Below, one piece after another: positions 7,794-29,802 of a DNA stretch of 43,054 bases. This DNA comes from Nitrobacter sp. 62-23 (GTDB lineage: Bacteria; Pseudomonadota; Alphaproteobacteria; Rhizobiales; Xanthobacteraceae). The notes beneath the pieces were generated by a model. The model saw only the letters and a program-made list of their open reading frames with translations, did not search any database and was not told the DNA's origin. Numbering within the stretch: position 1 is the first letter of the stretch; every line of letters starts with the position of its first letter. The stretch lies in NCBI RefSeq assembly GCF_001897285.1, contig NZ_MKSM01000090.1, positions 1 through 43,054 on the forward strand. Reading direction: 5' to 3'. The position numbers and the translations under genes are program-made.

Positions 7794-9122
7794 ATGAAGA
7801 TTGTTGTGGTCGGTGGTGGTGCTGCGGGTTTAGGAGCTGCGGGCGCGGCGTTAGGTGTCGATCCTTCTGCCGAGATGGTTGTTTACACCCAGTTCGAAGA
7901 CGTTGCCTACAGTCCTTGCGGTATTCCCTTCGTCCACGGGAAGGAAATCGAGTCCTTCGATCGGCTGTTTCTCGCCACGAAGGAGCAGTATCAGAAGCAG
8001 GGCATCGATGTGCACTATACGACCACGGTCGAGAGCATCGACGTCAAGCGCCATGTGATCAAGGTCGCTGGCGAAGGCGAGGTTCGATACGACAAGCTCG
8101 TTCTCGCCACCGGCTGGAATTACCGCGATCCCAATCTTCCCGGCGGCGATCTCAAGGGCATCTACCGGGTCAAGAACATCCAGCGCGCCAGGGAGTGGGA
8201 CTCGTTCCTCGACACGGTCAAGTCGGCCGTCGTGGTCGAATGCGGCCTGATCGCGGTCGAGATGGTAACTGCCCTGGTCCACCGCGGCATCAAGGTGACG
8301 GTGGTTGATCCCGGCCCCTGGCCGATGGCTGAAGTGGTGGACCCCGACATAGTCGATCCGGTTCGCGCCGGCTGGGCGGAAGCAGGCGTGACCACGCTCT
8401 GGGGTGAGCAGGTGACCGCCTTCGGCGGCGATGGCACCCTTTCCTATGTCGAGACCACGGCAGGCCGCGTCGAGGCCCAACTCGCGATCATCGGCACCCG
8501 CAAGGTGCCCAATAGCGACCTGGCCCGGGCCGCCGGAATCGCGCTGGGCGGCACCGGTGGCATCGTCGTCGATGCCCGGATGCAGACCTCCGCGTCGGAC
8601 GTCTTCGCGGCGGGCGACTGCACCGAGATTCCCCACGGCGTTTCCGGCGTGCCTCTGCAAGGCCTCTCCGGCAGCCATGCTTATGCGCAGGGCAAGACCG
8701 CCGGCATCAATGCCGCCGGCGGCGTTCGCGAATACGATCCGGTCTATGTGCCCTGGGCGATGCTCGCCGGCGAATGGATGATCGGCGGCGTCTCGTTTGG
8801 CGAGACGACGGCGAGCGCGGTGGGCATGAACTATGTCAGCGGCGTCGCGAAGGGGATCACCCGGGCGCGCTACTATCCGGGCGTGAAACCCATCACGGTG
8901 AAGCTGCTCGCAGATCCGGGCACGCGCTGTCTGATCGGCGCGCAGATCGTGGGCGGCGAAGGTGTGAAGGAGCGTGCCGACTTCCTGGCGGTCGCCGTAC
9001 GCGCGGGCATCACCATCGACGATCTCGCGACGATGGAGAACGTCTATTCGCCGGCGATCGGTGCGCTCAATGAGCCGATCCAGATGGCCGCACTCGCCGT
9101 CCAGCAGAATATGCGGAGGTAA
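7794..9122 (+). CDS. FAD-dependent disulfide-reductase-like protein (CoA-disulfide reductase family)
   Basis: A 442-residue flavoprotein of the CoA-disulfide reductase/NADH oxidase/peroxide reductase group. The FAD dinucleotide fold is at the N-terminus (VVVGGGAAGLGAAG). A single redox cysteine, Cys42 in YSPCGIPF, matches the CoADR type rather than the two-cysteine CxxxxC of glutathione reductase or 2-ketopropyl-CoM oxidoreductase. The second FAD motif is VFAAGDC and a C-terminal dimerisation domain follows. The NAD(P)H motif is unusual: at residues 149-154 ECGLIA replaces the expected GxGxxG. First gene of an operon with a small basic protein (2-base gap) and NitB. A role in reducing a low-molecular-weight disulfide, perhaps that of the sulfonated thiol made nearby, is inference. 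Confidence 0.9.
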   Translation: MKIVVVGGGAAGLGAAGAALGVDPSAEMVVYTQFEDVAYSPCGIPFVHGKEIESFDRLFLATKEQYQKQGIDVHYTTTVESIDVKRHVIKVAGEGEVRYDKLVLATGWNYRDPNLPGGDLKGIYRVKNIQRAREWDSFLDTVKSAVVVECGLIAVEMVTALVHRGIKVTVVDPGPWPMAEVVDPDIVDPVRAGWAEAGVTTLWGEQVTAFGGDGTLSYVETTAGRVEAQLAIIGTRKVPNSDLARAAGIALGGTGGIVVDARMQTSASDVFAAGDCTEIPHGVSGVPLQGLSGSHAYAQGKTAGINAAGGVREYDPVYVPWAMLAGEWMIGGVSFGETTASAVGMNYVSGVAKGITRARYYPGVKPITVKLLADPGTRCLIGAQIVGGEGVKERADFLAVAVRAGITIDDLATMENVYSPAIGALNEPIQMAALAVQQNMRR

Positions 9123-9124
9123 GC

Positions 9125-9424
9125 ATGTCATTCTCGCAGTGGCTGCGCACCAATTCGCAGCAATATCTTCTTGCCGATGCCCAGCAGCGCATCGGCCGGA
9201 AAAACGGCGTCACTGTCTACGGCAAGCCGCGCTCCCTGAAGGACCGCTTCTGGCGCTACATTTTCGTGCCGACATACAAGATTCTGCCGGACGGGCTGCG
9301 CCGGAGTCTGATCCACGCGATGCCGGGGAGCCATCGCCAGGCCTGGCCCAAGCAGAGCGCGCGCCCCCGTCCGCCTCATCCGTTCGTGCGGAGCAACGGG
9401 CAGGACCGATCGCCCAAGAAATGA
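9125..9424 (+). CDS. Small basic protein of unknown function
   Basis: A 99-residue protein, rich in Arg and Lys, with an aromatic central segment (DRFWRYIFVPTYKILP) and a disordered Pro/Arg-rich tail. No family recognised, no signal peptide or clear membrane helix. It starts 2 bases after the flavoprotein stop with a Shine-Dalgarno (GGAGG) in the upstream gene's end, so it is co-translated with it, and lies between the flavoprotein and NitB. This placement suggests a partner or accessory subunit of one of them. Coding status is supported by the tight spacing and RBS. Confidence 0.75.
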   Translation: MSFSQWLRTNSQQYLLADAQQRIGRKNGVTVYGKPRSLKDRFWRYIFVPTYKILPDGLRRSLIHAMPGSHRQAWPKQSARPRPPHPFVRSNGQDRSPKK

Positions 9425-9480: not shown

Positions 9481-9969
9481 ATGCCGAAGACAGTGAAGAT
9501 CCCTGCTGCGAAGGAAGGCGATATCCTCTTCAACGTGGAGGAGAAGGTATTTCCGGACGTCAAGGCCAACGAGGGCGACAAGGCCTTGATCCTCATGCAC
9601 ACCGTCCCGTTCGAGGGCTCGGTGGGCTTCGTGAACATGCTGACGGCAACGCGCCTGCGCCGCAAGGGTTTCGAGCTGTCGTTCGTGCTCTACGGCCCGG
9701 GTGTGCTAATGGCCGCGGCGACGCGCGGTTATCCGGCCGTGGGCGCCGAGGCTTTCCCTGGCAATCTCCAATATAATCGCCAGATCAAGACACTGATCGA
9801 CGAAGGCGCAAAGGTCTATGCCTGCCGCTTCGCGATGGGCGCACTGTACGGCATGCGCGAGGACGACCTGATCCCGGGTGTCATCCCGATCAACCCGCTC
9901 GACGTCCTCGACATCAACATTCAGGCATGGCGCGACCGCGCTCTGATCTTCTCGACCTGGACGGTCTGA
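9481..9969 (+). CDS. nitB: NitB-type protein (MSMEG_0572/Sll0783 family)
   Basis: A 162-residue protein that I recognise as the MSMEG_0572/Sll0783 family, described as a nitrogen-starvation response protein and known as NitB in Nit1C clusters. The sequence has a DsrE-like alpha/beta look: KALILMHTVPFEG, then FELSFVLYGPGVLMAAATRG and a cysteine in VYACRFAMGALYGM. Its function is unknown; it accompanies the nitrilase/radical-SAM set in many bacteria. Here it sits 15 kb from the nitrilase operon, behind the flavoprotein, rather than at the head of nitCDEF. A strong terminator follows at 9988-10023. Shine-Dalgarno AAGGAGAG lies just upstream of the ATG. Confidence 0.92.
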   Translation: MPKTVKIPAAKEGDILFNVEEKVFPDVKANEGDKALILMHTVPFEGSVGFVNMLTATRLRRKGFELSFVLYGPGVLMAAATRGYPAVGAEAFPGNLQYNRQIKTLIDEGAKVYACRFAMGALYGMREDDLIPGVIPINPLDVLDINIQAWRDRALIFSTWTV

Positions 9970-10108: not shown

Positions 10109-11524
10109 ATGAACCGCCACGACCAAGGCCCAGAGGCTCGCTTGCCCGGTGAGGTTCGCGTTATCAATATCGGCTTACCCATTTTCGCGGATGTGCTGCG
10201 CGATCAGGGCACGCCGGTCGTGGATGTCGACTGGCGCATTCCTGGCGGCGGCGACAGCAAATTGGTCGCCGCGCTTGCGCGGCTGCTCGGACCCAAAGCG
10301 GCCCGGATCGACGCGGCGAATACCCAGGTGCTCGGCCATCTGCGCGCCAGCCCTATCGTCAGGACCATCGAGCGTGCGGGCGCGGTGATCGCGGGACTTG
10401 GCGAGCGGACCCTCCTGCATTGCGGTCCAGCGATCACCTGGGACGACATGATCGATCCGCTGCGTCGGTCGGCGACCGCCGCGATCGTCGCCGAAGGCTG
10501 GGCCGATACCGTCGCGGCCGCGGCGGAACTCGCGCAGGCTGGCGAGATCGCATTGAAGCCCGCCAATGATCACCAGACCGTGGTTCCGATGGCCACCGTG
10601 ATCGGTCCGTCCGCACCAGTCTATGTCGTGGAAAACGCGCACGGCGGCACAACCGCCTTCTCGAGCATTAATCAGGGCGCCGGCGATGCCCCCTGGTTCG
10701 GGGTCAACAGCGATGCCGCCATCCAGCGGCTGAAGCTTGTGCGTGACGTGGTTGGACCGGTGCTGGCGGAGGCGCTGAGGCGCCGCGGCGGTATAGAGAT
10801 CCTCGACCTCGCCGCACAGGGGGTCGCCATGGCAGACGACGTCCACATGCGCGTCCAGGCCACTACCAACCTTCTGCTGCGCGACCTGTTGCCTGCCCTG
10901 CTCAGATCGGCCCATCCGCTGACTGCGCTCGCCGCAGATTTCCTCGCCAGTAATCCGCTCACGACGCTGAACATGGCGATGGCGGCTGCGAAGGCGTTGG
11001 CTGATGCGGCCGCGAAGGTCGATGGCGCCAGCCTCGTGACGACCATGGCGCGCAACGGGTCGTCGTTCGGGATACGGCTGGGCAATCGTCCCTGGGTCGT
11101 GACGGACGCCCCCCCGGTCCGGAGCGCGCTGTTCCGACCCGGCTTCGGCCCGGAATGCGCGGCTCCCGACATCGGGGACAGCGCGGTTCTCGAGCTTATC
11201 GGGCTTGGAGCCGCGGTCGCGGGAAACACGCCGGCCGTGGCGGCCTTCCTAGGCGGATCCGCCGATGCGCTCGCACTGACCCAGGCCATGGAGACAATCA
11301 GCGCGGGCGAGAGCGACCGTTTTCGGATGCCCTATCTGTCGAACAAAGGGTCGCCCGTGGGTCTCGATGTCCGGCGGATCGCCGAGCTGTCGATCACGCC
11401 GGGGATCAGCACCGGGATCGTGCATGCGACAGATGGCCTCGGCCAGATCGGCGCGGGCATCGCCCGCGCGCCGCTCGCTTGCTTCGTGCAAGCGGCACTT
11501 GAGCTTGACGAGAGGATCGTCTGA
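10109..11524 (+). CDS. DUF1116 protein, AllG/YlbE-like (oxamate carbamoyltransferase-type subunit)
   Basis: A 471-residue DUF1116 protein related to E. coli YlbE (AllG). Its N-terminus reads VRVINIGLPIFADVLRDQG, the INIGL-type nucleotide-binding start shared by YlbE proteins, and it contains long Ala/Gly-rich stretches and RFRMPYLSNKGSPVGLDVRR. In E. coli FdrA, YlbE and YlbF together form oxamate carbamoyltransferase (AllFGH), which splits oxalurate to oxamate and carbamoyl phosphate. Here the DUF2877 gene follows immediately and FdrA lies on the opposite strand 1.3 kb beyond, so the three-subunit enzyme is complete, but no allantoin genes or carbamate kinase are present. The substrate may differ. 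The Shine-Dalgarno before the ATG is weak. Confidence 0.88.
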   Translation: MNRHDQGPEARLPGEVRVINIGLPIFADVLRDQGTPVVDVDWRIPGGGDSKLVAALARLLGPKAARIDAANTQVLGHLRASPIVRTIERAGAVIAGLGERTLLHCGPAITWDDMIDPLRRSATAAIVAEGWADTVAAAAELAQAGEIALKPANDHQTVVPMATVIGPSAPVYVVENAHGGTTAFSSINQGAGDAPWFGVNSDAAIQRLKLVRDVVGPVLAEALRRRGGIEILDLAAQGVAMADDVHMRVQATTNLLLRDLLPALLRSAHPLTALAADFLASNPLTTLNMAMAAAKALADAAAKVDGASLVTTMARNGSSFGIRLGNRPWVVTDAPPVRSALFRPGFGPECAAPDIGDSAVLELIGLGAAVAGNTPAVAAFLGGSADALALTQAMETISAGESDRFRMPYLSNKGSPVGLDVRRIAELSITPGISTGIVHATDGLGQIGAGIARAPLACFVQAALELDERIV

Positions 11525-12343
11525 GTGCCGGATGCAGCACGTGCGGTCCATCAGGGCGAGGCGATCACCGAACTATGTGCCGAGGCAGCTCATAGCGATC
11601 GGTTGTCCGGGAAGATCGTGGGGCGTTTCACGGGCGGTTTTTACGCTAGGGTCGATGACAGCATCTTCGCCGTCGCGGGATCGCGGATCTGGCCGGGTCC
11701 GATCCACCTGGTCCTCGATCGCGATCCTCCGGCAGTTGCCGAGGGCGCAGACGTCCATCTGGATCCCCTTCGTCTCTCATTTCCTGGGGGGACGATCGAT
11801 CTCGCGCCGGCAATTCTCTACTTGCCGCGCGCGCCTTCGGCGAGCGATCTCGGCATCGCCGCCCCATGGATGGCATCATGGGCCGCTGCGAAGCACCGCC
11901 CCGATGATCTTGCCGCGGTCTGGAATGACACGCGAGCCGCGGTTGAAAATGGCGACTTGGAAAGCGCGGCGGCGGCCCTTGAGGGACGCGGGACCGGTCT
12001 AACGCCTTCGGGAGACGACGTGCTCGCGGGCCTCCTCCTGTTTTGCAGTTGGTCCGGACATTCGCTTGAGCGGCTCATCTCGATCGCAGCGCGCGCCCGG
12101 ACCACGGACCTCAGCCGAAACTTCCTGCGATGGGCCGCACGCGGGCAAAGCGTCGCGCCGGTCCATATGCTCTTCACGGACAGCAGCGATGCCCTCTGCC
12201 GACACGGCCCGCTACGCCGTGAAGCGTTCGAAGAGGCGGCGCACATTGTGCGCGGCATAGGCCACCGGTCTGGAGCCGCGCTGCTCGCAGGACTCGGGCT
12301 GGCGGCCACAACCTGGAAAGATCGGGGCCGCGACGCTCTATGA
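11525..12343 (+). CDS. DUF2877 protein, AllH/YlbF-like
   Basis: A 272-residue DUF2877 protein related to E. coli YlbF (AllH), the third component of oxamate carbamoyltransferase. The family motif is GRGTGLTPSGDDVLAGLLL at about residues 159-177. It starts with GTG directly after the DUF1116 stop, so the two are translationally coupled. It converges with the glycosyltransferase gene, overlapping it by 6 bases at 12338-12343. No catalytic assignment for the individual subunit is possible from sequence. Confidence 0.87.
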   Translation: MPDAARAVHQGEAITELCAEAAHSDRLSGKIVGRFTGGFYARVDDSIFAVAGSRIWPGPIHLVLDRDPPAVAEGADVHLDPLRLSFPGGTIDLAPAILYLPRAPSASDLGIAAPWMASWAAAKHRPDDLAAVWNDTRAAVENGDLESAAAALEGRGTGLTPSGDDVLAGLLLFCSWSGHSLERLISIAARARTTDLSRNFLRWAARGQSVAPVHMLFTDSSDALCRHGPLRREAFEEAAHIVRGIGHRSGAALLAGLGLAATTWKDRGRDAL

Positions 12344-13606
12344 ATGCGTGTCGCCGCCCCCGGAGTGCGTGACCTTTAAGGCGGAAAGGCTGACCCGGTC
12401 GGGCGCGCCCATCTCGCCCCAGATCCGCTCATAGTGCGCGATATGCTGGCGCGCGGTCCGATCCCAACCATAGTTGCCGACGAGCGCCGTGCCTTCCGCG
12501 GCGAGCCTCTGGCGTGTCTGCGGCTCGTCCATGAGCCGTGCCATGCCGAGGGCAAGCGACGCACTATCGCCTGCGCCTGTGAGGATGGCGTTCTCGCCAT
12601 CGTCCAGAAACTCCCGAAAGACGTCGATGTCGGACGCCACCACAGGGAGGCCGGCACTGGCCGCCTCCATGATGACCAACCCCCACCCCTCGTTGATCGA
12701 GGGGAAGACGAAACCATTGGCGACCGCCAGCCATTCGACCAGCTCGGCCTGGGCAACGGTCCGGAGCAGCACGACATCGCGTCCGAGCTCGAGCCCCAGT
12801 CCGGGCAAGGAAGCGAGCACCTCTTCGCTATAGGCCGAATAATCCTGGAAGCTGTGGCCTCCGATGATGGCCAGCACCGGCGAGACGGCGCGCTGCGCCT
12901 TGATCTGGGAAAGCGCCTCGACCAGGAATCGGCTTCCCTTGCGCGGCTCGATCCCGCCGATCGTGAGAAAGAGGAAGCGGTCTTCGGCGCCGACCCTGCG
13001 TCGGAGCTCCTTGCGGCGGGCATCGTCGAGCTCGCAGCGGAAATTTTCGGGCCAGACCCCGTTCGTGACGATGCTGGCATCCACGCCATATTCGGCACGC
13101 AGGCGATCCTGCCAGACCTTGCTCACCACCAGGACGTCGTCCGGCTCGAGGATAGCCTGGCGCTGGCATTCGATGAGCGCCTCGGTGGTGAAATCGTCGA
13201 CATGATGCACCGTGCGCATCAACCGAAAGGGAGCGCCCGCGTCACGGATCCGGGCTGCCGCGCGCGCCGAAATGCAATCCTGACTGTGCACGATATCGAA
13301 ACGGTCGCGCAGGGGCTCCAACCCCTTGATCAGCGTGTCGATCCAGCTGAAGACGCGCGCCTCGAGCGTGTCCTTCACCTCGGGCGGTCGAATATATTCG
13401 ACCGGAACGCTGACCTCGCGAAACAGTGAGCCCCGCTCCCCCATCGTGACCACCGTCACATCGATTCCCTGCGCCTGCAGCGCCTCGGCCAACTCCAGCG
13501 TATGCACGACACCGCCGCGCGGCTTGGTGGAATAGGTGGTGAGCGCAATGCGCGGGCCGCGCGCGGAGTGGGAGGAAGGCAGAGAAGACATTGCGGGTTG
13601 GTCCAT
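12338..13606 (-). CDS. GT4-type glycosyltransferase, MSMEG_0565-like
   Basis: A 422-residue GT-B fold, family-4-type glycosyltransferase. The N-terminal domain starts with RIALTTYSTKPRGGVVHTLE, and the C-terminal domain holds GIEPRKGSRFLVEAL and the EX7E donor-site motif in EGWGLVIMEAASAGLPVVAS. The wording matches the MSMEG_0565 family found in Nit1C clusters of mycobacteria, so its presence here fits. I placed the start at ATG 13606, 13 bases after the FdrA stop, because the longest open frame would overlap fdrA by 68 bases. Cytoplasmic; sugar donor and acceptor unknown. It suggests that the pathway product is glycosylated, which is inference. Confidence 0.88.
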   Translation of the reverse strand: MDQPAMSSLPSSHSARGPRIALTTYSTKPRGGVVHTLELAEALQAQGIDVTVVTMGERGSLFREVSVPVEYIRPPEVKDTLEARVFSWIDTLIKGLEPLRDRFDIVHSQDCISARAAARIRDAGAPFRLMRTVHHVDDFTTEALIECQRQAILEPDDVLVVSKVWQDRLRAEYGVDASIVTNGVWPENFRCELDDARRKELRRRVGAEDRFLFLTIGGIEPRKGSRFLVEALSQIKAQRAVSPVLAIIGGHSFQDYSAYSEEVLASLPGLGLELGRDVVLLRTVAQAELVEWLAVANGFVFPSINEGWGLVIMEAASAGLPVVASDIDVFREFLDDGENAILTGAGDSASLALGMARLMDEPQTRQRLAAEGTALVGNYGWDRTARQHIAHYERIWGEMGAPDRVSLSALKVTHSGGGDTHS

Positions 13607-13619
13607 TCGGATATCGGGA

Positions 13620-15164
13620 TCAGGAGTGTCGAGTTTCGGTCTTGCTCGCGATCGATGGCTTGCGAAGCGCGATCGCAAACGCGGCATATGCCGCGCGTGC
13701 GGTGGTGGGGGCCAGGATGCAGCCTGCGCCTTCGAGTTGATGGCGCTGCTTGTTCAGATCCTGCGGATCCGCCGCAGTACCGATGACACAGACGATAACA
13801 ACCGCGCCGGATTCAACGACCCTGGCCGCCGCAGGCGCCAACACATTGGCCGGATCAGGGTGAGAACCTTCACCGATGACGAGGTCCAGAAGAACGACTG
13901 CGACCGTGGGGTCTGCCGCCTGCTCCAACAGGAGTGCCGATCGCGCCGCGGCGTCGATCATCGGGTGCGGCCTGCCGCGCGTATGATCCTCATCGCCCAG
14001 ATCGAGCAGCAGATGCGCGTGACGTGCATTAGGATCGAGTGGTGGCGGTGCGGTGCGCGCAATCGGCGCGAGATGGCGGACCGCGATCGCTGCTGCCTCC
14101 TCGCAGAGAGTTCCACCGCTGAACAGGCCGACCACACGCGTCCGATCCGGCGACAGTCGCGTTGCAGCCGCTTCGATTTGGTCGACGAGATGGGCATCGA
14201 GCGTTATTTGCGGCGCATATCCGAGCAATCCCGCGACCGCGTATGCGCCCTGCTCAAGCGTGGAATAGACGTCCTTTCGCGCCATCAGGCGAACGTCGCC
14301 CGTGCCTAGTAGAACTGCCACGATCGGTTTGCTCGCGCCGTCGAGCAGCCTGGCCGCCGCCGCCGCGTCGGTCTGCTTCGATATGAGAATGATGGCGTGC
14401 GTCTTCTCGTCGGCCTCGAAGGCCTCGAGCGCCATCTGCGCGGAAAGACCGCCTATCTCGGCCGTGAGGTCGTGCGCGCCGACTCCGATCACCTGCGATA
14501 TTCCGATCCCCATGTGATCGAGGAGGCACATGACCGCCTGCGCACCCGTGCCGGAGGCGGCGATGATGCCGACCTGGCCGGATCGGACGCGGTTGGCGAA
14601 TCCGAACCCGATGCCACCGATCCAAGAGGTCCCGGCGCCAGGTCCCATGACGAACAGGCCGAGCGTCCGCGCACGCTGCTTGAGGGCGAGCTCGTCTGCC
14701 AGGTCGACGCCATCGCTGAACAGCATCACATGGAGCCCCTCGGAAAGCGCCTTCTGGGCTTCCAACGCGGCATAGGGTCCGGGCACCGAAATCATCGCGA
14801 TATTGGCGGTGCGATCCTCGCACAGCGCTGCCCGCAGATCTGCCGGAGGCGACTCCTGGACGCGGGTGGTATCAGCCCCAGCGGCGAACAGGCCGGCCTC
14901 GGCCAGCGCCAATGCGCGCTGTGCCGAAGCCTTATCCTCCGCCCGAACGGCGAGAACGAGATCATTCGCCTGCGCATTGATCTCGGTGTCCGCGAAACCC
15001 TCGGCGTGCAATTGTTGAAGATTGGCTGGGGTCGCCATGAAGGCCCCCGCCCACTCCACGCCGCTGGCCTCCAGCATCGCGCGGGTCGCGGCCATCTGAC
15101 GGACGCTGTCCTTGTAAGCGCCTCGGCGCACGGTGAGGAGAAGGGTCAAGGCTGCCGCCATCAT
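13620..15164 (-). CDS. FdrA-like protein (AllF; acyl-CoA-synthetase-like subunit)
   Basis: A 514-residue protein aligned by eye with E. coli FdrA (AllF). Shared segments include RRGAYKDSVRQM near the start, ATPANLQQLHAEGF, VMGPGAGTSWIGGIGFGFAN, GIIAASGTGAQAVM, DLTAEIGGLS and LLDLGDEDHTRGRPHPMID. The fold resembles succinyl-CoA synthetase alpha-type subunits. With DUF1116 and DUF2877 it makes oxamate carbamoyltransferase in E. coli. Here it is on the opposite strand from its partners and is followed by the glycosyltransferase 13 bases on. The start is uncertain: TTG 15170, or ATG 15164 or 15161; I used the first ATG. Its promoter region (15291-15331) carries a motif shared with the comA promoter. 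Confidence 0.88.
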   Translation of the reverse strand: MMAAALTLLLTVRRGAYKDSVRQMAATRAMLEASGVEWAGAFMATPANLQQLHAEGFADTEINAQANDLVLAVRAEDKASAQRALALAEAGLFAAGADTTRVQESPPADLRAALCEDRTANIAMISVPGPYAALEAQKALSEGLHVMLFSDGVDLADELALKQRARTLGLFVMGPGAGTSWIGGIGFGFANRVRSGQVGIIAASGTGAQAVMCLLDHMGIGISQVIGVGAHDLTAEIGGLSAQMALEAFEADEKTHAIILISKQTDAAAAARLLDGASKPIVAVLLGTGDVRLMARKDVYSTLEQGAYAVAGLLGYAPQITLDAHLVDQIEAAATRLSPDRTRVVGLFSGGTLCEEAAAIAVRHLAPIARTAPPPLDPNARHAHLLLDLGDEDHTRGRPHPMIDAAARSALLLEQAADPTVAVVLLDLVIGEGSHPDPANVLAPAAARVVESGAVVIVCVIGTAADPQDLNKQRHQLEGAGCILAPTTARAAYAAFAIALRKPSIASKTETRHS

Positions 15165-15290
15165 GGCCAACGGACAGAGATTGAGCTGGTATTCATGGCA
15201 ACGATGCGCCTCGCCTTTCCCGCCACTGGAAATCTCGCCGTCGGCTCTTCTGTTCCAGCGCTGCGCGCCCCCATGACACGGAGCGTATCT

Positions 15291-15331: not shown

Positions 15332-15387
15332 GTCAAACGTGGTTGCGGTCGTGCGGGATGGCCGGACCACCAAGGAGACTCCGCTTC

Positions 15388-17000: not shown

Positions 17001-17005
17001 ATGCT

Positions 17006-21764: not shown

Positions 21765-22571
21765 TCAAGCGCGAACAAGGTGGGGGCCCTCGCTATCGGC
21801 GTCGGCCAGCAGTTCGAGCGTGTCGGCGCGCAGCCCGAGGCGGAGAGTCTCGAGGCTGATCACGTCGCCGGGCAGGATGTTCCCCAGATTGACCTCCGGA
21901 CCGAACTCCCGGATCAAAAAGGCCTGTTGCGCCCGCTGCGGCGCCTCGAAGACGAGCTTGTCGGCGAACATGCTACGCGTGATCGCGTGGAGGATGTCGT
22001 TCCTGACCTTGCCATATTCGTCATAGAGCCCGACGGTTCCGCTTTCGCGCCCTTCGATCACGATCCAGCGCGCGCCGGCACGGGCATCCGTTTTGAGCTG
22101 ATTGACCCATTCTGCCGAGCTCAGCTGCTTGGTGGGATCCTTGCTTCCGATTTCGGAGAGAACCTCGAAGCCCAGGGCATTGGCACGCTCGATGAGCGCG
22201 AGCTTGTCGCGCGAGGGCATATGGGTCGCGCCATCGGATACCTCGACGCAGTCGAAGCCGCGTTCAGCTGCAAACTCGAAAAACGCCTCGGTGCGGCCTC
22301 GCAACCATGCGATTTCGAGCAACGTACCTCCGGGACACGTCTTGATGCCGGTGGTTTTCAGCAGCGCTATTTTCGCCGTTACTGTCGGGTCGACATAGGA
22401 GATGCCGAAGCCGAACTTCCAGATGTCGATATAGCCGGCTGCGGAGGTGAGGATCGCCTGGATATCCGCCGTGGTGCTGCCTTTATCGAGGATATGGGTG
22501 ATACCGGCCTTGCGCGGCTGCGTTGATCTTGCCGGGAGGTCAAGGAAGGTGGGAAGCTGGTCGGCGGACAT
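21765..22571 (-). CDS. comA: Phosphosulfolactate synthase (ComA family)
   Basis: A 268-residue TIM-barrel protein of the ComA family (about 250-270 residues usual). ComA adds sulfite to phosphoenolpyruvate to make phosphosulfolactate, the first step of coenzyme M synthesis in methanogens and in Xanthobacter (XcbB1). Motifs in order: LDKG (28-31), WKFGFG (51-56), CPGGTLLE (79-86), VEVSDG (109-114), EIGSKDP, VIEGRESG and FGPEVNLGNI. I start at ATG 22571, with an AAGGAGAG Shine-Dalgarno and a promoter upstream. It heads a five-gene, mostly overlapping operon with two lyases, a PLP enzyme and an unknown protein. Some bacterial homologues make other sulfonates such as sulfolactate, so the product should be treated as a sulfonate, probably coenzyme M. 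Confidence 0.92.
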   Translation of the reverse strand: MSADQLPTFLDLPARSTQPRKAGITHILDKGSTTADIQAILTSAAGYIDIWKFGFGISYVDPTVTAKIALLKTTGIKTCPGGTLLEIAWLRGRTEAFFEFAAERGFDCVEVSDGATHMPSRDKLALIERANALGFEVLSEIGSKDPTKQLSSAEWVNQLKTDARAGARWIVIEGRESGTVGLYDEYGKVRNDILHAITRSMFADKLVFEAPQRAQQAFLIREFGPEVNLGNILPGDVISLETLRLGLRADTLELLADADSEGPHLVRA

Positions 22572-22891: not shown

Positions 22892-23302
22892 TTAGGCCGT
22901 AATCAGTTGCGGGGCGATTACAATGTCCAGATCGGATTTCAGCGTATTGGTGAAGTAGCAGACGCGCTCGGCCTGTCGGATAAGGCCATCGAGCGCGGCG
23001 GGGTCGCACGCGACCCGCGCATCGATCCGGACGGCGCGGAAACGCGGCCCATCATAGAAGCCGGTCGCCGTGACATTGATCGCGTCCACCGCGATCGACC
23101 GGCGGCGCGCGCTGAACGCCAGGGCCAGCGTGAAGCAAGAGGCGATCGAGGACAGGAAGAGTTCGGTAGGTTGCGGTCCGCGGTCCGTACCGCCGACGCT
23201 TTCAGGCTCGTCCACCACCAGGGTGAAACGTCCTGCCTGGACTTCGCAGGAGAGGCCTCCTCGCCATTCGCTGACAACCGACCGCTCATGGTTCGCGGAC
23301 AT
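22892..23302 (-). CDS. OsmC-family protein
   Basis: A 136-residue OsmC/Ohr-fold protein. The first redox cysteine is in LFLSSIASCFTLAL and the second in RVCYFTNTLKSD, spaced as in OsmC proteins, with PQPTELFLSS as the typical helix start. Family members reduce organic hydroperoxides or act on low-molecular-weight thiols. A Shine-Dalgarno (AGGAG) precedes ATG 23302. It lies between the comA operon and mocR and is transcribed with neither clearly; a 320-base gap follows it. A protective role around thiol or peroxide chemistry in the island is inferred. Confidence 0.87.
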   Translation of the reverse strand: MSANHERSVVSEWRGGLSCEVQAGRFTLVVDEPESVGGTDRGPQPTELFLSSIASCFTLALAFSARRRSIAVDAINVTATGFYDGPRFRAVRIDARVACDPAALDGLIRQAERVCYFTNTLKSDLDIVIAPQLITA

Positions 23303-23374: not shown

Positions 23375-24772
23375 TTATAGGAAGGAAGTCACTGTTGCCG
23401 GCATCACCTCAAGTGCGTGTGCCGCGCATTCGAGCGCTCGTTTTATGGTCGAGCGAGGTGCTGGTCCTCCAAGGCAGATGCGCACCGCTTCGGGCGGAAT
23501 TCCGGACACGGTGAACGCGTCGCTCGGGACGATCCCCACACCAGTCGAGCGCATGTGACCGACAAAGGCAGACCGCGTCCATGCGGCGGGAAGCGACAGC
23601 CAGATGTTGAAACTGTCAGGATCGCCTTCGAAGCGTTGGTCGGCAAGGATCCGATGCGCGAGTTTCTGCCGCTCCTCGGTCTCGACGCGGACGGCGCGCA
23701 GGATGGCGTCGGCAGTTCCATCCTCGATCCATTGCGTCGCAAGCGCCAGGGTGATCGGCGAGGCAATGACAGCGGCGGAACGCACCGCCGAGGCGAACGC
23801 CCAGGCCGACCGCTTTTCAGGCACCATGACATAAGCGGTGCGCAGGCCCGCCCCGATGCATTTTGCGAGCGAGGCGACATACCAGGTGAGATCGGGCGCA
23901 AGCGACGCGATCGTTGGCGGCGGTCCCGGCGCGATAAAGCCATAAGCATCGTCTTCGATGATCGCGACGCCGAAGCGGCGCGCGATCTCGACGATCTGCT
24001 GGCGGCGCACAAGGGAGATGGTGACGTTGGTCGGGTTCTGCAGCGTCGGATTGAGATAGAGAGCCTTTGGCGCTAGGCGCTTGCAAGCCTCCGCAAATGC
24101 TTCGGGCTCGATTCCTTCCTGATCCATCGACAGGCCGTGTAGGTCGACCCCGACCAGCGCCACGACGGCCCTGATGCCTGGATAGGTCAGATTTTCGCTG
24201 AGCAGGACATCGCCTGGCTTGGTGAGTGCGCTCAATATCCCCAGCAACGCAGCATGTGCGCCCGGGGTAACATAGATCTGTTCGATCGCCGGTACGAGCC
24301 CTCGACGCGCCAGCCAATGCTGCGCCGCCTCCTTGTCACGCACTCCCCCGCCGAAAGACTGGTAGCGCAGCATCGGAAGGATATCGCGTCCGATCATGTC
24401 CCAACCAGCGCGCATGCGCTCGATCAGTTCAGGCGAGTGCGGCTCCGGCGGCAAATTCATCGAAAGATCAGCGTCGTCGCCATGCGTGCGCGACGGCGCG
24501 GTCATGTCGGCGTGCAGGTTTGCGCGCTGGATCGGCAACACGAATGTTCCGTGCCCCTGCCGGGCCTCCACGAGGCCGCGTTTCTGGGCTTCGCCATATC
24601 CTCGGGCCACTGTCGTGAAATCGATCCCGAGGCGCTCTGCAAGCAAACGCTGCGCCGGCAACCGGTCTCCTGCGACCAGACGACCGGCCTGCATGTCGGA
24701 TGCAATACGATCGGCGAGAGCAAGATAACGGGGCTTCGCTGAAGTGGAGAGATCGGGCGTCCAGTCGTGCAT
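23375..24772 (-). CDS. MocR/PdxR-type GntR regulator with aminotransferase domain
   Basis: A 465-residue MocR-type regulator: a GntR winged helix (residues 12-75, ALADRIASDMQAGRLVAGDR, then RLGIDFTTVARGYGEA) fused to a fold-type I aminotransferase-like domain that binds PLP (YLNPTLQNPTN, IIEDDAYGFI, and the lysine in YVASLAKCIGAGLR). MocR proteins sense amino acids or amines through PLP and bind direct repeats, often activating a divergent operon. It is divergent from the nitrilase operon, and repeated CCGAT elements lie in the shared 346-base gap. I start at ATG 24772; a longer open frame to 24910 lacks family similarity. Confidence 0.93.
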   Translation of the reverse strand: MHDWTPDLSTSAKPRYLALADRIASDMQAGRLVAGDRLPAQRLLAERLGIDFTTVARGYGEAQKRGLVEARQGHGTFVLPIQRANLHADMTAPSRTHGDDADLSMNLPPEPHSPELIERMRAGWDMIGRDILPMLRYQSFGGGVRDKEAAQHWLARRGLVPAIEQIYVTPGAHAALLGILSALTKPGDVLLSENLTYPGIRAVVALVGVDLHGLSMDQEGIEPEAFAEACKRLAPKALYLNPTLQNPTNVTISLVRRQQIVEIARRFGVAIIEDDAYGFIAPGPPPTIASLAPDLTWYVASLAKCIGAGLRTAYVMVPEKRSAWAFASAVRSAAVIASPITLALATQWIEDGTADAILRAVRVETEERQKLAHRILADQRFEGDPDSFNIWLSLPAAWTRSAFVGHMRSTGVGIVPSDAFTVSGIPPEAVRICLGGPAPRSTIKRALECAAHALEVMPATVTSFL

Positions 24773-24919
24773 GAGCTCAGTGTTTCGAAACCTCGGATGG
24801 ATTGACTGTACAATGTTGCACGCGCGAAAGCCAGCCCGTTGACCGCCTCGCGTGACAGGACTGAAACCCGCCAATGACTGGATGGTGCGGTGCGGAATGA
24901 TAAGAAGCAAAGGCAGTTG

Positions 24920-24950: not shown

Positions 24951-25042
24951 ATGATCGGATAGTGAATGGACGTAAAGACAGCATTATGAGCCGATACATC
25001 AGCAGATATGATGCGTATATTGAATGCATTATATCCGATCAT
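24951..25042. promoter_or_regulatory. Triplicated CCGAT-type element, probable MocR sites
   Basis: Three related sites: ATGATCGGATA at 24951-24961; GCATTATGAGCCGATAC at 24981-24997; GCATTATATCCGATCAT at 25026-25042. The last two are direct repeats with a one-base length difference; the first is a perfect 11-base inverted copy of TATCCGATCAT (25032-25042). A further imperfect inverted repeat, GATATGATGC with GCATTATATC (25005-25014, 25026-25035), overlaps. The rest of the 346-base gap (24773-25118) shows only an imperfect palindrome GTACAATGTTGCAC near 24807 by the mocR start. Confidence 0.55.
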
Positions 25043-25118
25043 GTTCCAGTCTCCAGATCACGGGTCAGTTGCCCGTGCCAAAAGAGGCAAATTGTCCCCG
25101 CATCACGAGAGGAAAGCC

Positions 25119-26126
25119 ATGTCTGAAAAACGTGTGATCCGCGCTGCCGCCGTACAGATTGCCCCCGATCTCGAGACTCCGTTGGGCACGCTCGACCGTG
25201 TCCTCGCAGCGATCTCGGACGCCGCGGACAAGGGCGTCCAGTTTATCGTCTTCCCCGAGACATTCGTTCCCTATTATCCCTATTTTTCGTTCGTGCGCCC
25301 TCCGATGACCAGCGGCGGCGATCACATGCGCTTTTACGAGAACGCCGTCGTGGTGCCAGGTCCCGTCACCGAGGCCATCAGCCAAGCCGCGCGGCGCCAC
25401 AAGATGGTGATCGTGCTCGGCGTCAATGAGCTGGACTATGGCTCGATCTACAACGCGCAGCTGATTTTCGACACCGACGGCAAGCTCCTGCTGAAACGGC
25501 GCAAGCTCACCGCCACGTTCCATGAGCGCATGATCTGGGGCGGCGGCGATGGCGCCGGGCTCAAGGTCGTCGATACCGCGGTCGGCCGCGTCGGCGCGCT
25601 TGCCTGCTGGGAGCACTACAATCCGCTCGCCCGCTATGCGCTGATGGCGCAGCACGAGGAAATTCACGCGGGCCAGTTCCCGGGCTCGCTGGTGGGTCAG
25701 ATATTCGGCGAGCAGACCGAGGTGACGATCCGCCACCACGCCCTCGAGAGCGGTTGCTTCGTCGTCAACTCGACCGGCTGGCTGACCGAGGAGCAGATCG
25801 CGTCCATCTCGCCCGATGAAGGCCTGCAGCGCGGCCTGCGCGGCGGCTGCATGACCGCGATCATTTCGCCCGAGGGCAAGCACCTCGTCGATCCGCTGAC
25901 CTCTGGCGAAGGTCTCGTGGTGGCCGACCTCGACATGAGCCTCATCATCAAGCGCAAGCGCATGATGGATTCCGTCGGTCACTATGCTCGCCCCGAGCTT
26001 CTGTCGCTTCTCATCAACGACCAGCCGGCCGTGACGATGCGAAGCGCCGAATCCATTCGCTCCGTCCCGCACGCGACGCACGCGGAGGCAAGCGAAGATC
26101 AGGGGGCGCTCGAGAATGTCGACTGA
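25119..26126 (+). CDS. nitC: Nit1-type nitrilase (NitC)
   Basis: A 335-residue nitrilase-superfamily enzyme of the Nit1 (Sll0784) branch, hydrolysing a nitrile to acid and ammonia. The Glu-Lys-Cys triad is present: Glu47 in [13 protein letters not shown], Lys129 in [12 protein letters not shown], and Cys163 in [20 protein letters not shown] 25119 has GAGAGGA upstream; a longer frame from 25008 is rejected. First gene of a five-gene operon whose members overlap by 1-11 bases. Nit1C nitrilases have been implicated in bacterial growth on cyanide, but the true substrate is not settled. Divergent from mocR, which probably activates the operon. Confidence 0.95.
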
Positions 26127-27213
26127 GTCCTTGATCAACGATCTGCAGTCCTTCGGGATCCGGCTCGTCGATCCCAGGAGCTCGGGGGTTAGCCGGCGCG
26201 GTGGCGCCGGCCCTTCCGACCACATGGCGGTGACGATCGACGGGACCACTGTCATGGTGCCGGTCCACAATGCGCCAGCTTTCGAGAGCCCTTATCAGGC
26301 GGCCCGCCCTGATGCGGCCGGCGTAAGCCGATTGAGCCGCGACGGCGTGGAACTCGCGGCGATTTCCTTCCCCACGAAGCCGAAATTCTACGAGCTTTCG
26401 ACAGCGGACGGGATCCCCTATTCGCATATCGCGACCCTCCACGGCCGCGATGTCCTGGCCACGACCATCCTGCAGACCTGCATCCGTTATCAAAGCCGGA
26501 CCAAGGCCTGTCAGTTCTGCGCGATCGGCCAGTCGCTGGCGGCTGGCCGCACGATCGAGCGCAAGACGCCCGCGCAGCTGGCCGAGGTTGCCAAGGCCGC
26601 CGTCGAACTGGATGGCGTGCGTCATATGGTCATGACGACCGGGACGCCGCCGGGGCCTGATCGCGGCGCAGCGATCCTCGCGGAGAGTGCTGCGGGTGTG
26701 AAGACGGCGGTCGACCTGCCGATCCAGGCGCAGTGCGAGCCGCCGGACGACGATCTCTGGTTCACGCGCCTGAAAGACGCCGGTGTCGACTCGCTCGGCA
26801 TGCATCTCGAGGTCGTGACGCCGGAAGTTCGCGCTCGGATCATGCCCGGCAAGGCACAGGTGTCCCTCGAACGCTATTTCGACGCCTTCGAGGCGGCGAT
26901 TGAGGTATTCGGCCGAGGACAGGTTTCGACCTTCATCCTCGCGGGCCTGGGAGATAGCCGCGAGGCGCTCCTCGACGTCTGTCGACGGCTGGTCGCCAGC
27001 GGCGTCTATCCGTTCGTGGTGCCCTTCGTTCCGATCGCGGGCACCCCGCTTGAGAGCCATCCATCGCCGAAGCCAACCTTCATGCACAGCGTTCTCCAGC
27101 CGCTCGGAGCAATGCTCCGTGAAGCCGGAATGCAGTCGAGCGACATCAAGGCCGGCTGCGGGCGATGCGGGGCGTGCTCGGCCCTCTCGAGCTATGAGCG
27201 GCGCGCGTCATGA
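26116..27213 (+). CDS. nitD: Radical SAM protein, MSMEG_0568 family (NitD)
   Basis: A 365-residue radical SAM enzyme. The cluster ligands are Cys122, Cys132 and Cys135 in a CX9CX2C motif ([15 protein letters not shown]), longer than the standard CX3CX2C and characteristic of the MSMEG_0568 family. The TIM-barrel body follows, and the C-terminus has a second cysteine group, Cys348, 351 and 354 ([11 protein letters not shown]), which may hold an auxiliary cluster. The reaction is unknown. It overlaps nitC by 11 bases and the GNAT gene by 4, so it is coupled to both. Radical SAM plus nitrilase is the defining pair of Nit1C clusters. Confidence 0.94.
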
Positions 27214-27755
27214 GCGCCGTAGCCAAACAGGCTGTGCCGGCGCCTTCGTTGCGCATCAAATGGGCGACCGCGGAGTGGGAGCGCTCCGCGGCGTTCGCGT
27301 TGCGCCGCGAGATCTTTTGCGAGGAGCAAGGGGTCTTCGTGGCGGATGATCGGGACGAGATCGACGAGTTCGCAATCGCTCTGGTGGCCGTCATGCAGGA
27401 CGAGGACGGACTTTCCCGGGTTGTCGGCACGGTGCGGATTCACGAGGATTTGAACGAGCACAAGACCTGGTGGGGATCCCGTCTCGCCGTCACTCAGGCC
27501 TATCGCGGCCGCGCCGGTGGGCGGATCGGCCCCGACCTCATCCGCTTGGCCGTCTCCTCGGCGCATGCCCGTGGATGCACACGCTTCCTGGCCAATGTGC
27601 AGAGCCAGAACGCCCTTCTCTTCAAACGGCTGCATTGGCGCTCGCTCGAGGAGTTCGACCTGTTCGGCAGGGCGCATCACCGAATGGAAGCGGATCTGGA
27701 ATATTACCCGCCTTTTGGCACGCCCCAGGTGGGCTTCCTGTCCCGAGCGCGCTGA
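27210..27755 (+). CDS. nitE: GNAT acetyltransferase-like protein (NitE; MSMEG_0567 N-domain)
   Basis: A 181-residue GNAT-fold N-acyltransferase. Visible parts are LRREIFCEEQGVFVADD near the start, a strand DGLSRVVGTVRIHED, the acyl-CoA-binding region AVTQAYRGRAGGRIG, and VQSQNALLFKRLHWRSLEEF. In Mycobacterium the homologous MSMEG_0567 protein has this domain fused to an AIR-synthase-like domain; here they are separate adjacent genes, as in Nit1C clusters of proteobacteria. It overlaps the radical SAM gene by 4 bases and its stop shares one base with the next ATG. Acceptor unknown. Confidence 0.92.
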   Translation: MSAVAKQAVPAPSLRIKWATAEWERSAAFALRREIFCEEQGVFVADDRDEIDEFAIALVAVMQDEDGLSRVVGTVRIHEDLNEHKTWWGSRLAVTQAYRGRAGGRIGPDLIRLAVSSAHARGCTRFLANVQSQNALLFKRLHWRSLEEFDLFGRAHHRMEADLEYYPPFGTPQVGFLSRAR

Positions 27756-28753
27756 TGAGCCGGGCAGACATCAACCTGGCGGCGCTCGCTCAGTCGCTGC
27801 GCCAGAGCCGCAGCTTCGCCGCAAAGGCGGACATCGCCTGCGTGGTGAAGGCTCTGGGAATCGAGACAGGTGCGATCGCGGTCGGTGACGATTGTGCCGC
27901 GATCCCCGATGGGGACGGCTATCTGCTGTTCGCCATCGAGGGATTCATCAACGAGTTCGTTGCCAGCGATCCTTGGTTCGCAGGCTGGTGCGGCGTGATG
28001 GTCAACGTCTCCGATATCGCAGCGATGGGCGGTCGTCCCCTGGCAACAGTGAATGCCATCTGGTCGGACGGACAAGACGGGGCCCTGCCCATCCTTGAGG
28101 GCTTGCGCAACGCATCGCGCGCCTTCGGGGTCCCCATGGTCGGTGGGCACAGTAATCTGCGGATGAAGAACAGTCAGCTTGCGCTTGCGATCCTCGGTCG
28201 CGCCAAGAAGCTGCTAACCAGCTTCGACGCGACGCCGGGCGATCATCTGGTGGCCGCCATCGATCTGCGTGGCCGATATCGCGAGCCATATCCGAACTGG
28301 GATGCCGCCACCTCCGCCCCACCCACGCGCCTGCGCGGTGATCTCGATCTGTTGCCTGAGATCGCCGAAGCCGGGCTTGCAAGAGCTGCCAAGGACATCA
28401 GCCAAGGCGGGATTATCGGCACCGCGACGATGCTCGCGGAATGCTCAGGCGTTGGCGCGGTGATCGACATCGATGCGATTCCAATGCCGGCGGACGTCGC
28501 GATCGAGCGCTGGCTCCAGACATTCCCGAGCTTCGGCTACCTGCTCGCGGTCGGCGCGGCGGAACTGGACGAAGTCCTGGCCAGGTTTCGTGCGAGAGAC
28601 ATCGCGGCGGCGGCGATCGGAACGATCACCGAGGATCCGCGCGTGCGAATCGAGTGCGCGACGCAACGGGAAACCGTCTGGGACTTGTCGGACCGGCCGC
28701 TGATCGGATGCGCGCCAGCTTCGGCCACGACCCGCGACGAGGTTCGAGCATGA
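27755..28753 (+). CDS. nitF: AIR-synthase-related ATP-dependent protein (NitF; Sll0787 type)
   Basis: A 332-residue member of the AIR synthase/selenophosphate synthetase (PurM/SelD) superfamily, which activates substrates with ATP. Markers: AIAVGDDCAAIPDGDGYLLF (about 43-62), MVNVSDIAAMGGRPLA, GVPMVGGHSNLR, and the second-domain AKDISQGGIIGTATMLAECS. Known as the Sll0787-type protein in Nit1C clusters. ATG 27755 is used; a long upstream extension in the same frame is a shadow of the GNAT gene. Translationally coupled at both ends. The activated substrate is unknown; it could make an imidazole-like or amidine product. Confidence 0.92.
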   Translation: MSRADINLAALAQSLRQSRSFAAKADIACVVKALGIETGAIAVGDDCAAIPDGDGYLLFAIEGFINEFVASDPWFAGWCGVMVNVSDIAAMGGRPLATVNAIWSDGQDGALPILEGLRNASRAFGVPMVGGHSNLRMKNSQLALAILGRAKKLLTSFDATPGDHLVAAIDLRGRYREPYPNWDAATSAPPTRLRGDLDLLPEIAEAGLARAAKDISQGGIIGTATMLAECSGVGAVIDIDAIPMPADVAIERWLQTFPSFGYLLAVGAAELDEVLARFRARDIAAAAIGTITEDPRVRIECATQRETVWDLSDRPLIGCAPASATTRDEVRA

Positions 28754-29802
28754 ACGGCGTAGCCCTGACCGCCGCCAAGGCGCACCCTGATGCCTTGCGG
28801 GAGCCCTGCACGGCGTGCGGGCAGAAATGGTTGCGGAGCGCCTTCGGTCGGTTGCAGGATCGCTGCGAGCATTGCGGCTATGATCCGGTGTCAGCCTCCG
28901 CCGAGCCGCTCGAGCCTTTCGCCGATGCGCCGCCGCGCCCCTCGTTTTGGCTGCGGAACCGAAGCGAGACAATTCTCCTGGGCATGCCACAGCTGAGCTT
29001 GCACGGCCTCTCGGAGACTTGGCTGCTGAAGCAGCTCGGGCATCAACACTGGATGATGCTCGCGAGCTTGGCCGGCCAGAAAGTGCCGAGCTTCATCGAT
29101 GAGCGCGGAAAACCAGTCTATGCGGCCTTTTCCGCGATTTCGATTCAGGATGGCGACTTTGGCTCCGTCCGTGAGAATGATGAGTTGGTCGTACGATCGC
29201 GGGTGCGGCGAGTGACGCAGACGCAGATGCTGAGCCGCCACCGTCTGGTGGTGGGCGGTCGCTACATCGGGCAGGTGGAGATGGTCTCGGTCTTCGTGCG
29301 CCGCGGCCAGGATGGTGGCAATCGCAGCGTCTCCCGGTTCGTCGTGCCAGGTCTGCCGAAGCCGGAGCCGTTCCGGAGCCGAGAAGATCTGCCGGGCTGG
29401 GCGGCCGCTGTGCGTGCCGGTCGCGTGAGCGAACATCTGGGCTTCGCGCTGCACCAGGCGGCAGTCGGACCGGTCGTCGCCATCGACCCTTGCCCCGCCC
29501 AGGACTTCAACGGCGCAGGCTTCCTCTATTTCAGCAGCTTCGTCTCTTTCGTGGATCGCGCTGAATGGCAGTTCGCCCGCGATTTCGCTCGAACGGCAAC
29601 GACATTGCGGCGGGATATCCTCTTCGCGGGCAATCTCGACCCAGGCGAAACACTGTTGGTCGGGCTGGTCGACCGGAAGGATTGGCATGTGCCCGGCGAT
29701 CCGACTCCTGGGACCAGGACGTTGTCGCATCATTGTCGTCTTGTACGAACCGGCGACAATGAGCCGATCGCCGAGGTTTTCACGATCCGGCATATCCACT
29801 AA
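28750..29802 (+). CDS. Zinc-ribbon plus LnmK/Pnap_2097-like double-hotdog protein
   Basis: A 350-residue protein. Residues 20-42 form a zinc ribbon (Cys20, Cys23, Cys39, Cys42; CX2C-X15-CX2C). The remainder resembles the Pnap_2097/LnmK family, hotdog proteins that act as acyltransferase/decarboxylase or thioesterase-like enzymes in biosynthetic clusters: LLGMPQLSLHGLSETWLLKQ, GDFGSVRENDELVVRSRV, and CPAQDFNGAGFLYFSSFVSF. It is the last gene of the nit operon, 4-base ATGA overlap with nitF, occupying the place where standard Nit1C clusters carry NitG and NitH. It suggests that a thioester-bound intermediate is handled. Family call from memory, so moderate confidence. Confidence 0.78.
   Translation: MNGVALTAAKAHPDALREPCTACGQKWLRSAFGRLQDRCEHCGYDPVSASAEPLEPFADAPPRPSFWLRNRSETILLGMPQLSLHGLSETWLLKQLGHQHWMMLASLAGQKVPSFIDERGKPVYAAFSAISIQDGDFGSVRENDELVVRSRVRRVTQTQMLSRHRLVVGGRYIGQVEMVSVFVRRGQDGGNRSVSRFVVPGLPKPEPFRSREDLPGWAAAVRAGRVSEHLGFALHQAAVGPVVAIDPCPAQDFNGAGFLYFSSFVSFVDRAEWQFARDFARTATTLRRDILFAGNLDPGETLLVGLVDRKDWHVPGDPTPGTRTLSHHCRLVRTGDNEPIAEVFTIRHIH

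Follow-up and report, generated by a model that had tools for sequence, protein, structure and literature searches.

What could bring genes for nitrile, coenzyme M (CoM) and carbamoyl chemistry together on one short stretch of bacterial DNA? The question is raised by a 43,054-bp contig (C90; NZ_MKSM01000090.1) of Nitrobacter sp. 62-23, referred to here as the window, which belongs to a 3.79-Mb draft genome that is 99.75% complete. Between positions 7794 and 29802 the window holds an island of about twenty genes, including the five Nit1C families NitB to NitF, a glycosyltransferase (GT) of the MSMEG_0565 type, five families of CoM biosynthesis, and the FdrA, AllG and AllH families. A preliminary description, made from the sequence letters, had recognized these three modules and named their families by eye, and family scans bear it out: NitB to NitF and the GT score over curated cut-offs, and ComA, AllG, AllH and FdrA are found. 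Its two lyases correspond to XcbC-like and XcbD-like enzymes, its pyridoxal phosphate (PLP) enzyme to an XcbE-like protein, and a DUF7714 protein belongs to the XcbA family. The parts are known families; the combination is neither that of Nit1C, two of whose seven genes are missing, nor that of the epoxide pathway, and there is a substantial chance that it represents a new kind of system.

The island genes very probably form one system, to judge from the way in which they travel together in two phyla. A tblastn search of plasmids with XcbA returned two plasmids of Methylocystis iwaonis (66-67%), and both carry, within about 20 kb, NitB, NitC, NitD, NitE, NitF, the GT, AllG, FdrA, ComA, XcbA, XcbC, XcbD and XcbE, together with six proteins missing from the preliminary description, namely a flavoprotein of the coenzyme A (CoA)-disulfide-reductase family (FADred), a small conserved protein (termed small), an OsmC-family protein, an XRE-cupin regulator, a conserved protein of an unnamed family (hyp15) and a Pnap_2097/LnmK-like protein; a seventh, the MocR-type regulator of the window, was likewise absent from it. 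Loci searched with the island proteins revealed the same gene set in Sphingobium chungbukense and a third Methylocystis, and part of it at a contig edge in Paraburkholderia elongata. The set also occurs in genomes or bins of Nocardioides, Kribbella, Terrabacter, Pseudonocardia, Actinomycetospora and Acidimicrobiia, and its gene order is reshuffled between the phyla. XcbA itself is rare, being present in 2 of 385 genomes of the window's class and 6 of 249 of the Pseudonocardia order. The combination is therefore not confined to this strain and its close relatives, a possibility that the preliminary description had named as fatal to its proposal, and its presence in such distant bacteria suggests that it is probably one undescribed pathway. 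Gene content was tabulated for 20 islands (6 proteobacterial and 14 actinobacterial, some merged from several stretches of one genome), in which genes were called by tblastn at E limits of 1e-4 to 1e-8. In this table the count of NitE is too low, owing to masking by overlapping NitF hits, and that of FADred reflects a 330-bit limit, below which the copy of Pseudonocardia dioxanivorans CB1190 (47%) falls.

Is the island then simply a Nit1C cluster? Excerpts of Podar et al. (PMC1199592) describe Nit1C as seven genes, NitB to NitF (genes 1 to 5), NitG of about 100 amino acids (gene 6) and the flavoprotein NitH (gene 7). Excerpts of a further study (PMC11049912) state that pseudomonads need Nit1C to grow on cyanide and that NitC acts on 2-hydroxynitriles, and in the excerpts of both sources NitB and NitG are proteins of unknown function. 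The window carries NitB of the MSMEG_0572/Sll0783 family, which is DsrE-like (9481-9969, plus strand; TIGR04044, 224.7 bits, cut-off 110), and a plus-strand run of the Nit6803-family nitrilase NitC (25008-26126; TIGR04048, 557 bits, cut-off 503; aligned with 3wuy), the MSMEG_0568 radical SAM protein NitD (26116-27213; TIGR04043, 601 bits, cut-off 304), the GNAT protein NitE (27210-27755; TIGR04045, 218 bits, cut-off 68) and the AIR-synthase-like NitF (27755-28753, start estimated; TIGR04049, 463 bits, cut-off 321). It further shares with Nit1C the GT (12338-13687, minus strand; TIGR04047, 361 bits, cut-off 260), which is MshA/BshA-like, and the MocR-type GntR regulator (23375-24910, minus strand; family scans), homologs of which, 45-62% identical, adjoin all 13 ordinary Nit1C loci used for comparison. 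These loci come from one order, Hyphomicrobiales, the comparison set for the window having been sampled from its own order, and were covered for about 10 kb per side or up to the contig end. MocR and NitB to NitH are present in 13 of the 13 and the GT in 12, whereas no Xcb, AllFGH, small or OsmC gene was found within about 10 kb, so that the link is to one clade of systems rather than to Nit1C generally. The idea of the preliminary description that the modules act as one system is thus upheld by recurrence, but does not extend to ordinary Nit1C. In place of NitG and NitH the island has small and FADred, which are unrelated to them by family search. An ordinary-locus query for NitG (MSMEG_0570 family) matches 13 of 13 ordinary loci but no island locus and not the window, and one for NitH (MSMEG_0569 family), which is also missing from the window, matches the same 13 loci and elsewhere gives one weak 32% match (L089).

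The histories of the shared genes differ, as indicated by trees of NitB, NitD, NitF and GT. In the NitD and NitF trees the proteobacterial islands nest within ordinary Nit1C and the actinobacterial islands stand apart (support 100), whereas in the NitB and GT trees the proteobacterial islands group with the actinobacterial ones and ordinary Nit1C stands apart (support 100). In addition, NitC of the window is 66-79% identical to ordinary Nit1C copies. This conflict points to block replacement: it seems that in the proteobacterial islands an ordinary NitC-NitD-NitE-NitF block was inserted into the widespread core, where it took the place of nitrile hydratase and of diverged NitD, NitE and NitF. 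Such a swap is strong evidence that both versions do the same job.

To our knowledge, CoM in bacteria has been reported from hydrocarbon breakdown alone. In the window, all five enzyme families lie adjacent on the minus strand, as they do in the CoM biosynthesis genes (xcbA-E) of Xanthobacter Py2 and other alkene degraders: ComA, phosphosulfolactate synthase (21765-22571, start estimated, reading frame open to 23009; PF02679, 269 bits; TIGR03849, 268 bits, just below the cut-off of 280), XcbA (DUF7714; 20864-21778; NF052538, 310 bits, cut-off 150), the XcbD-like lyase (19536-20879; NF052536, 500 bits, below the cut-off of 600), the XcbE-like PLP enzyme (18523-19545, start estimated; PF00291; NF052537, 189 bits, below the cut-off of 450) and the XcbC-like phosphosulfolactate lyase of the aspartase/fumarase superfamily (17006-18526; NF052535, 439 bits, below the cut-off of 575). 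As the lyases, the PLP enzyme and the DUF7714 protein are relatives of XcbC, XcbD, XcbE and XcbA, and ComA accompanies them, the full bacterial CoM set is present.

The island type is separated from the alkene type in an XcbA tree. From 177 XcbA relatives of a one-genome-per-species scan, the best 80 by likeness to the window's XcbA were kept and joined by four plasmid rows, one further genome row and the window, giving 86 rows (84 different). One side of the tree holds 62 rows and the other 24, proportions that reflect selection by likeness to the window rather than prevalence. Of the 62, 61 are island-labelled, 56 of these having two or more of the 16 companion genes and five having exactly one (four NitF, one OsmC), and the remaining row is a 3.1-kb contig, too short for companions; none of the 24 has companions. 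Searches of 23 alkene-type Xcb loci found no AllF, AllG, AllH, NitB, NitD, NitE, NitF, GT or high-scoring FADred, and the Xcb loci of Xanthobacter Py2 and Mycolicibacterium chubuense have no Nit or All genes. When columns at least 90% conserved in the alkene-type enzymes were examined, the island type was seen to keep 44 of 52 in ComA, 72 of 75 in XcbC and 84 of 122 in XcbD, but 44 of 79 in XcbA and 41 of 78 in XcbE, which are thus more diverged. By this measure, the first steps of CoM synthesis are likely the same in both types, while the last step may differ. Three loci on the tree (L076, L082 and L085) come from bins titled Bifidobacterium breve group, lying among other actinobacterial bins, and these titles are probably wrong. 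Viral contigs were also searched for XcbA relatives and yielded none.

The nitrile-cleaving step appears to be interchangeable. Among the 20 tabulated islands, 5 carry NitC, 10 carry both subunits (alpha and beta) of nitrile hydratase, and 4 carry an amidohydrolase_2 protein (AmiHyd), so that exactly one hydrolase class is present in 19 and two classes in none; in the remaining island, that of P. elongata at the contig edge, none of the three classes was found. The nitrilase that the preliminary description counted as a member of the set holds its place in the window, but Actinomycetota islands are without any nitrilase and carry nitrile hydratase or the amidohydrolase instead. Of 19 genomes or records, 10 have nitrile hydratase alpha at most 20 kb away from XcbA, 2 have it elsewhere and 7 lack this subunit. 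Its claw motif reads VCTLCSC in 24 of 27 rows and VCSLCSC in one, two rows being incomplete; we take the former to be the cobalt-type metal site. The actinobacterial islands resemble cobalt-type nitrile hydratase operons in having alpha, beta and accessory genes, but differ from them in that the genes are embedded in a cluster of CoM, AllFGHK and Nit1C-like genes rather than placed beside an amidase; the window has no nitrile hydratase. Because AmiHyd has no PDB relative by sequence, its part as a substitute is read from gene replacement, that is from position alone, and it is possible that it replaces NitC or nitrile hydratase in the four islands. A gene for an AmiS/UreI-like channel is present in 16 of 59 island loci.

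The carbamoyl module consists of AllG (DUF1116; 10109-11524, plus strand; PF06545, 211 bits), AllH (DUF2877; 11525-12343, plus strand; PF11392, 60 bits) and FdrA/AllF, which has a CoA-ligase fold (13620-15170, minus strand; PF00549; PRK06091, 361 bits, below the curated cut-off of 433), all presumed subunits of a carbamoyltransferase. In Escherichia coli, according to excerpts of PMC11326118, allFGH encode oxamate carbamoyltransferase, which catalyzes a reversible phosphorolysis, and allK encodes carbamate kinase. Of 19 island genomes or records, 16 have AllG no more than 20 kb from XcbA, the exceptions being Sphingobium (other contig), CB1190 (other locus) and P. elongata (none found); neither of two alkene-type genomes has it there. 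As fetched, all 14 actinobacterial islands contain AllG, 11 contain FdrA, 10 AllH and 11 carbamate kinase, and in genome G545 the kinase lies on the island's contig outside the fetched stretch. The kinase was named by a subfamily model over its cut-off, arcC itself scoring just below cut-off. The island thus resembles E. coli allFGHK in its three subunits and, in most actinobacterial islands, in the kinase, but differs in that the window's genome is without the kinase and that no allantoin or ureidoglycolate genes are seen among the window's scanned open reading frames (ORFs).

The remaining conserved genes point to thiol redox chemistry and to proteins particular to the island. FADred (7794-9122, plus strand; Pyr_redox_2; TIGR03385, 249.5 bits) has CoA-disulfide and CoA-persulfide reductases as PDB relatives and a single cysteine, Cys42, in SPCGIPFVH; of 35 island rows scoring above 330 bits, 32 keep the single-cysteine SPCGIP motif, and the row of L091 is incomplete. 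OsmC (22892-23302, minus strand; PF02566, 59.5 bits) is 62% identical in Methylocystis. The island-specific protein small (99 amino acids; 9125-9424, plus strand; conserved in an alignment) matches no NCBIfam family and is predicted as a three-helix model with a predicted local distance difference test (pLDDT) score of 72 and a low-confidence C-terminus. In a sample of 249 genomes from the Pseudonocardia dioxanivorans order, four contain it, and all four belong to the six with XcbA (Fisher p = 1e-7); G648, an XcbA genome without it, has a high-scoring XcbA like that of the alkene type. In P. dioxanivorans and Pseudonocardia sp. N23, small is fused to NitB in a 275-residue ORF (L093, 16252-17079; L113, 10727-11554), and this fusion suggests that the two proteins work together. 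Hyp15 (228 amino acids; 15325-16011, plus strand; no Pfam family; alignment of 14) gives a predicted model with a pLDDT of 84.6, whose fold has no PDB match at E <= 0.001. The XRE-cupin regulator, which is PuuR-like (16158-16817, plus strand; HTH_3 and Cupin_2), is present in 20 of 20 tabulated islands, and NitB, NitD, NitE, NitF and GT are present in all or nearly all of them. The last gene of the island encodes the Pnap_2097/LnmK-like protein (28708-29802, plus strand, start uncertain; TIGR04099, 310 bits).

How might these parts fit together? It is plausible, though somewhat short of an even chance, that the island runs a salvage of nitrile or cyanide nitrogen on a CoM-type thiol, ending in carbamoyl phosphate. 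Thiols react with cyanate, and disulfides with cyanide. From phosphoenolpyruvate, sulfite and cysteine, ComA, XcbC, XcbD, XcbA and XcbE would build CoM or a close analogue. A cyano group would be taken up by this thiol, or by a product of NitB, NitD, NitE, NitF and GT; one such form could be an organic thiocyanate arising from the disulfide and cyanide. The step from X-CN to X-CO-NH2 would be catalyzed by NitC here and by nitrile hydratase or the amidohydrolase elsewhere. FdrA, AllG and AllH would then release carbamoyl phosphate and free the thiol, and carbamate kinase, where present, would convert carbamoyl phosphate to ATP, ammonia and CO2, while FADred and OsmC would hold the thiol in its redox state. 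A thiol that carries first a cyano and then a carbamoyl group would join the thiol-making set, the flavoprotein, OsmC and the carbamoyl-splitting set. More tentatively, this would amount to a second, non-hydrocarbon use of CoM, in which the thiol or a close analogue is the carrier, the nitrogen leaves as carbamoyl phosphate through FdrA/AllG/AllH, and the nitrile step is interchangeable among three unrelated enzymes. The theme of a sulfonated thiol with nitrile and carbamoyl chemistry, proposed in the preliminary description, gains from the nitrile hydratase and carbamate kinase that join elsewhere, and the chemistry itself is what we infer.

Several observations weigh against such a salvage. 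Classical nitrilases yield acid and ammonia, with no carbamoyl group, so that the AllFGH step is left unexplained where NitC is the hydrolase unless NitC works here as a hydratase or on another bond. Moreover, NitC alone, acting on cyanohydrins, accounts for cyanide use without CoM in excerpts of PMC11049912. The carbamoyl module is uneven: AllG was not found in P. elongata, AllH was not found in the M. iwaonis plasmids searched with island proteins, the window's genome gives no TIGR00746 match for carbamate kinase, and three other proteobacterial genomes give weak matches alone. No XcbE turned up in one tabulated island of Acidimicrobiaceae or in a number of related loci, the SPCGIP motif is missing from the flavoprotein in two CB1190-like rows (L095 and L113), and in CB1190 the system is split over two loci, with small near each. 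Finally, the roles of NitB, NitD, NitE, NitF, GT, small and hyp15 are left unexplained by it.

The island could instead make a new low-molecular-weight thiol or cofactor, in which CoM is elaborated by the glycosyltransferase, GNAT, radical SAM and AIR-synthase-like enzymes, somewhat like mycothiol or bacillithiol, with uses that include nitrile or cyanide detoxification. The nearest curated relatives of the GT include MshA (90-101 bits) and BshA (55-64 bits), the flavoprotein and OsmC are what a redox thiol would be expected to bring along, and the near-constant presence of NitB, NitD, NitE, NitF and GT would find its reason. We nevertheless regard this as doubtful, as no mycothiol-type cysteine ligase or deacetylase was seen among the conserved families, AllFGH, carbamate kinase and the interchange of hydrolases go unaccounted for, and ordinary Nit1C has NitB, NitD, NitE, NitF and GT yet no CoM genes. 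The flow could also be reversed. HypF and HypE carry out carbamoylation and then dehydration to a nitrile in hydrogenase maturation; likewise, FdrA/AllG/AllH, whose reaction is reversible in excerpts of PMC11326118, would use carbamoyl phosphate to load a carbamoyl group onto the thiol of CoM or onto a different acceptor, and NitF, as an AIR-synthase-like relative of HypE, would dehydrate the product to a nitrile or thiocyanate as a biosynthetic intermediate. NitF of an actinobacterial island does match HypE, but weakly (27 bits) and far below cut-off, and it resembles methanogenesis marker 2 and ThiL more closely; whatever product was formed would be lost again to a nitrile hydratase or nitrilase encoded in the cluster, and no other user of carbamoyl phosphate is conserved there. 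Reverse flow is thus unlikely.

That the modules are functionally independent, held together by joint horizontal transfer or shared regulation, is disfavoured and improbable. The island is mobile, with relatives on plasmids and, at 68-78% DNA identity, in a different alphaproteobacterial order, where Tn3-family transposase genes lie nearby. However, joint retention in two phyla despite reshuffled gene order, the swap of one nitrile-cleaving enzyme for another inside the same set, and the tie of small to XcbA in the independent sample of 249 genomes all speak against independence. The last alternative, a pathway for alkenes or epoxides like the known one of Xanthobacter, would agree with the same five Xcb families, with catalytic-region columns largely common to both types, and with the separate alkene-type locus of one Methylocystis strain. 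It is very improbable and is rejected on the search for XecA, the epoxyalkane:CoM transferase: the window's genome has one 28% partial match and no full-length ortholog, and the island locus is without XecA or epoxide carboxylation genes. Full-length orthologs (at least 49%) occur in two alkene-type genomes, the Xanthobacter control and that Methylocystis strain, hence in 1 of 19 island genomes or records; the other 18 have none, six being without any match and the rest showing partial or low-identity matches. Near the island of the M. iwaonis SD4 plasmid, just upstream, only broken XecA pieces are seen (NZ_CP143315.1, 175033-175373), and the alkene-type Xcb genes keep their own side of the tree without island genes. 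The strain in question, Methylocystis sp. Sn-Cys (L053; G531, contig C19), has the island plus a second, alkene-type XcbA on the contig that bears XecA, and is a natural pair for comparing two uses of CoM.

The surroundings of the island add some further observations. The gene debris at its edges, noted in the preliminary description, has been partly checked, and one stretch of 73 bp (7600-7672) shows a 93% match to an IS5 transposase. A Tn3-family transposase gene occupies 166-3156, and distant relatives (36-45% at the amino acid level) adjoin parts of the Sphingobium island (L052 and L137). Between the XRE-cupin gene and xcbC lies a dispersed intergenic repeat (16900-17012) with a strong fold (z -5.3), present at 40 places at 80% identity or more in its own genome, among 40 scored of 240 candidates, and with 93% matches in Bradyrhizobium plasmids. 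Shared promoter words, which had been thought to link the CoM and AllFGH modules, did not withstand comparison: with 16-mers and two mismatches allowed, nine intergenic stretches gave two near-identical pairs, within the range of 0-4 in 10 shuffles, and they were dropped as evidence of linkage. Rfam and tRNA searches of the window gave no match. Beyond the island, two adjacent aldo-keto reductase genes and a LysR regulator (31729-34275) share 81% DNA identity with a Sinorhizobium plasmid. LarE-LarB-LarC genes of the nickel-pincer cofactor directly adjoin Pseudonocardia and Actinomycetospora islands (e.g., L068, L073, L093 and L104) and were excluded from the system because other islands are without them. 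Genes for a bd-type oxidase adjoin the island in the M. iwaonis plasmids (L034, 1753-4188); as a clue to cyanide, cydAB was set aside, since of all loci searched only the two of M. iwaonis have it.

In an open-access literature search, no paper joining these genes and none linking CoM with Nit1C was found among the papers returned, for some queries the top-ranked ones only, which leaves absence from print unproven; phosphosulfolactate synthase and nitrile hydratase are mentioned together solely in a sponge metatranscriptome study, in separate passages. The gene neighbourhood on the larger side of the XcbA tree is a different one, and the epoxide enzyme is missing from it. Should CoM serve the use of nitrile or cyanide nitrogen, this would be a new biological role for CoM, and the functions of NitB, NitD, NitE and NitF in Nit1C, long a matter of question, would become testable, since the island offers natural swaps of nitrile enzymes around a conserved set. 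Moreover, the island loci are spread over methanotrophs, soil actinomycetes and actinobacterial metagenome bins, so that the trait may matter for the cycling of nitrogen and cyanide in the environment.

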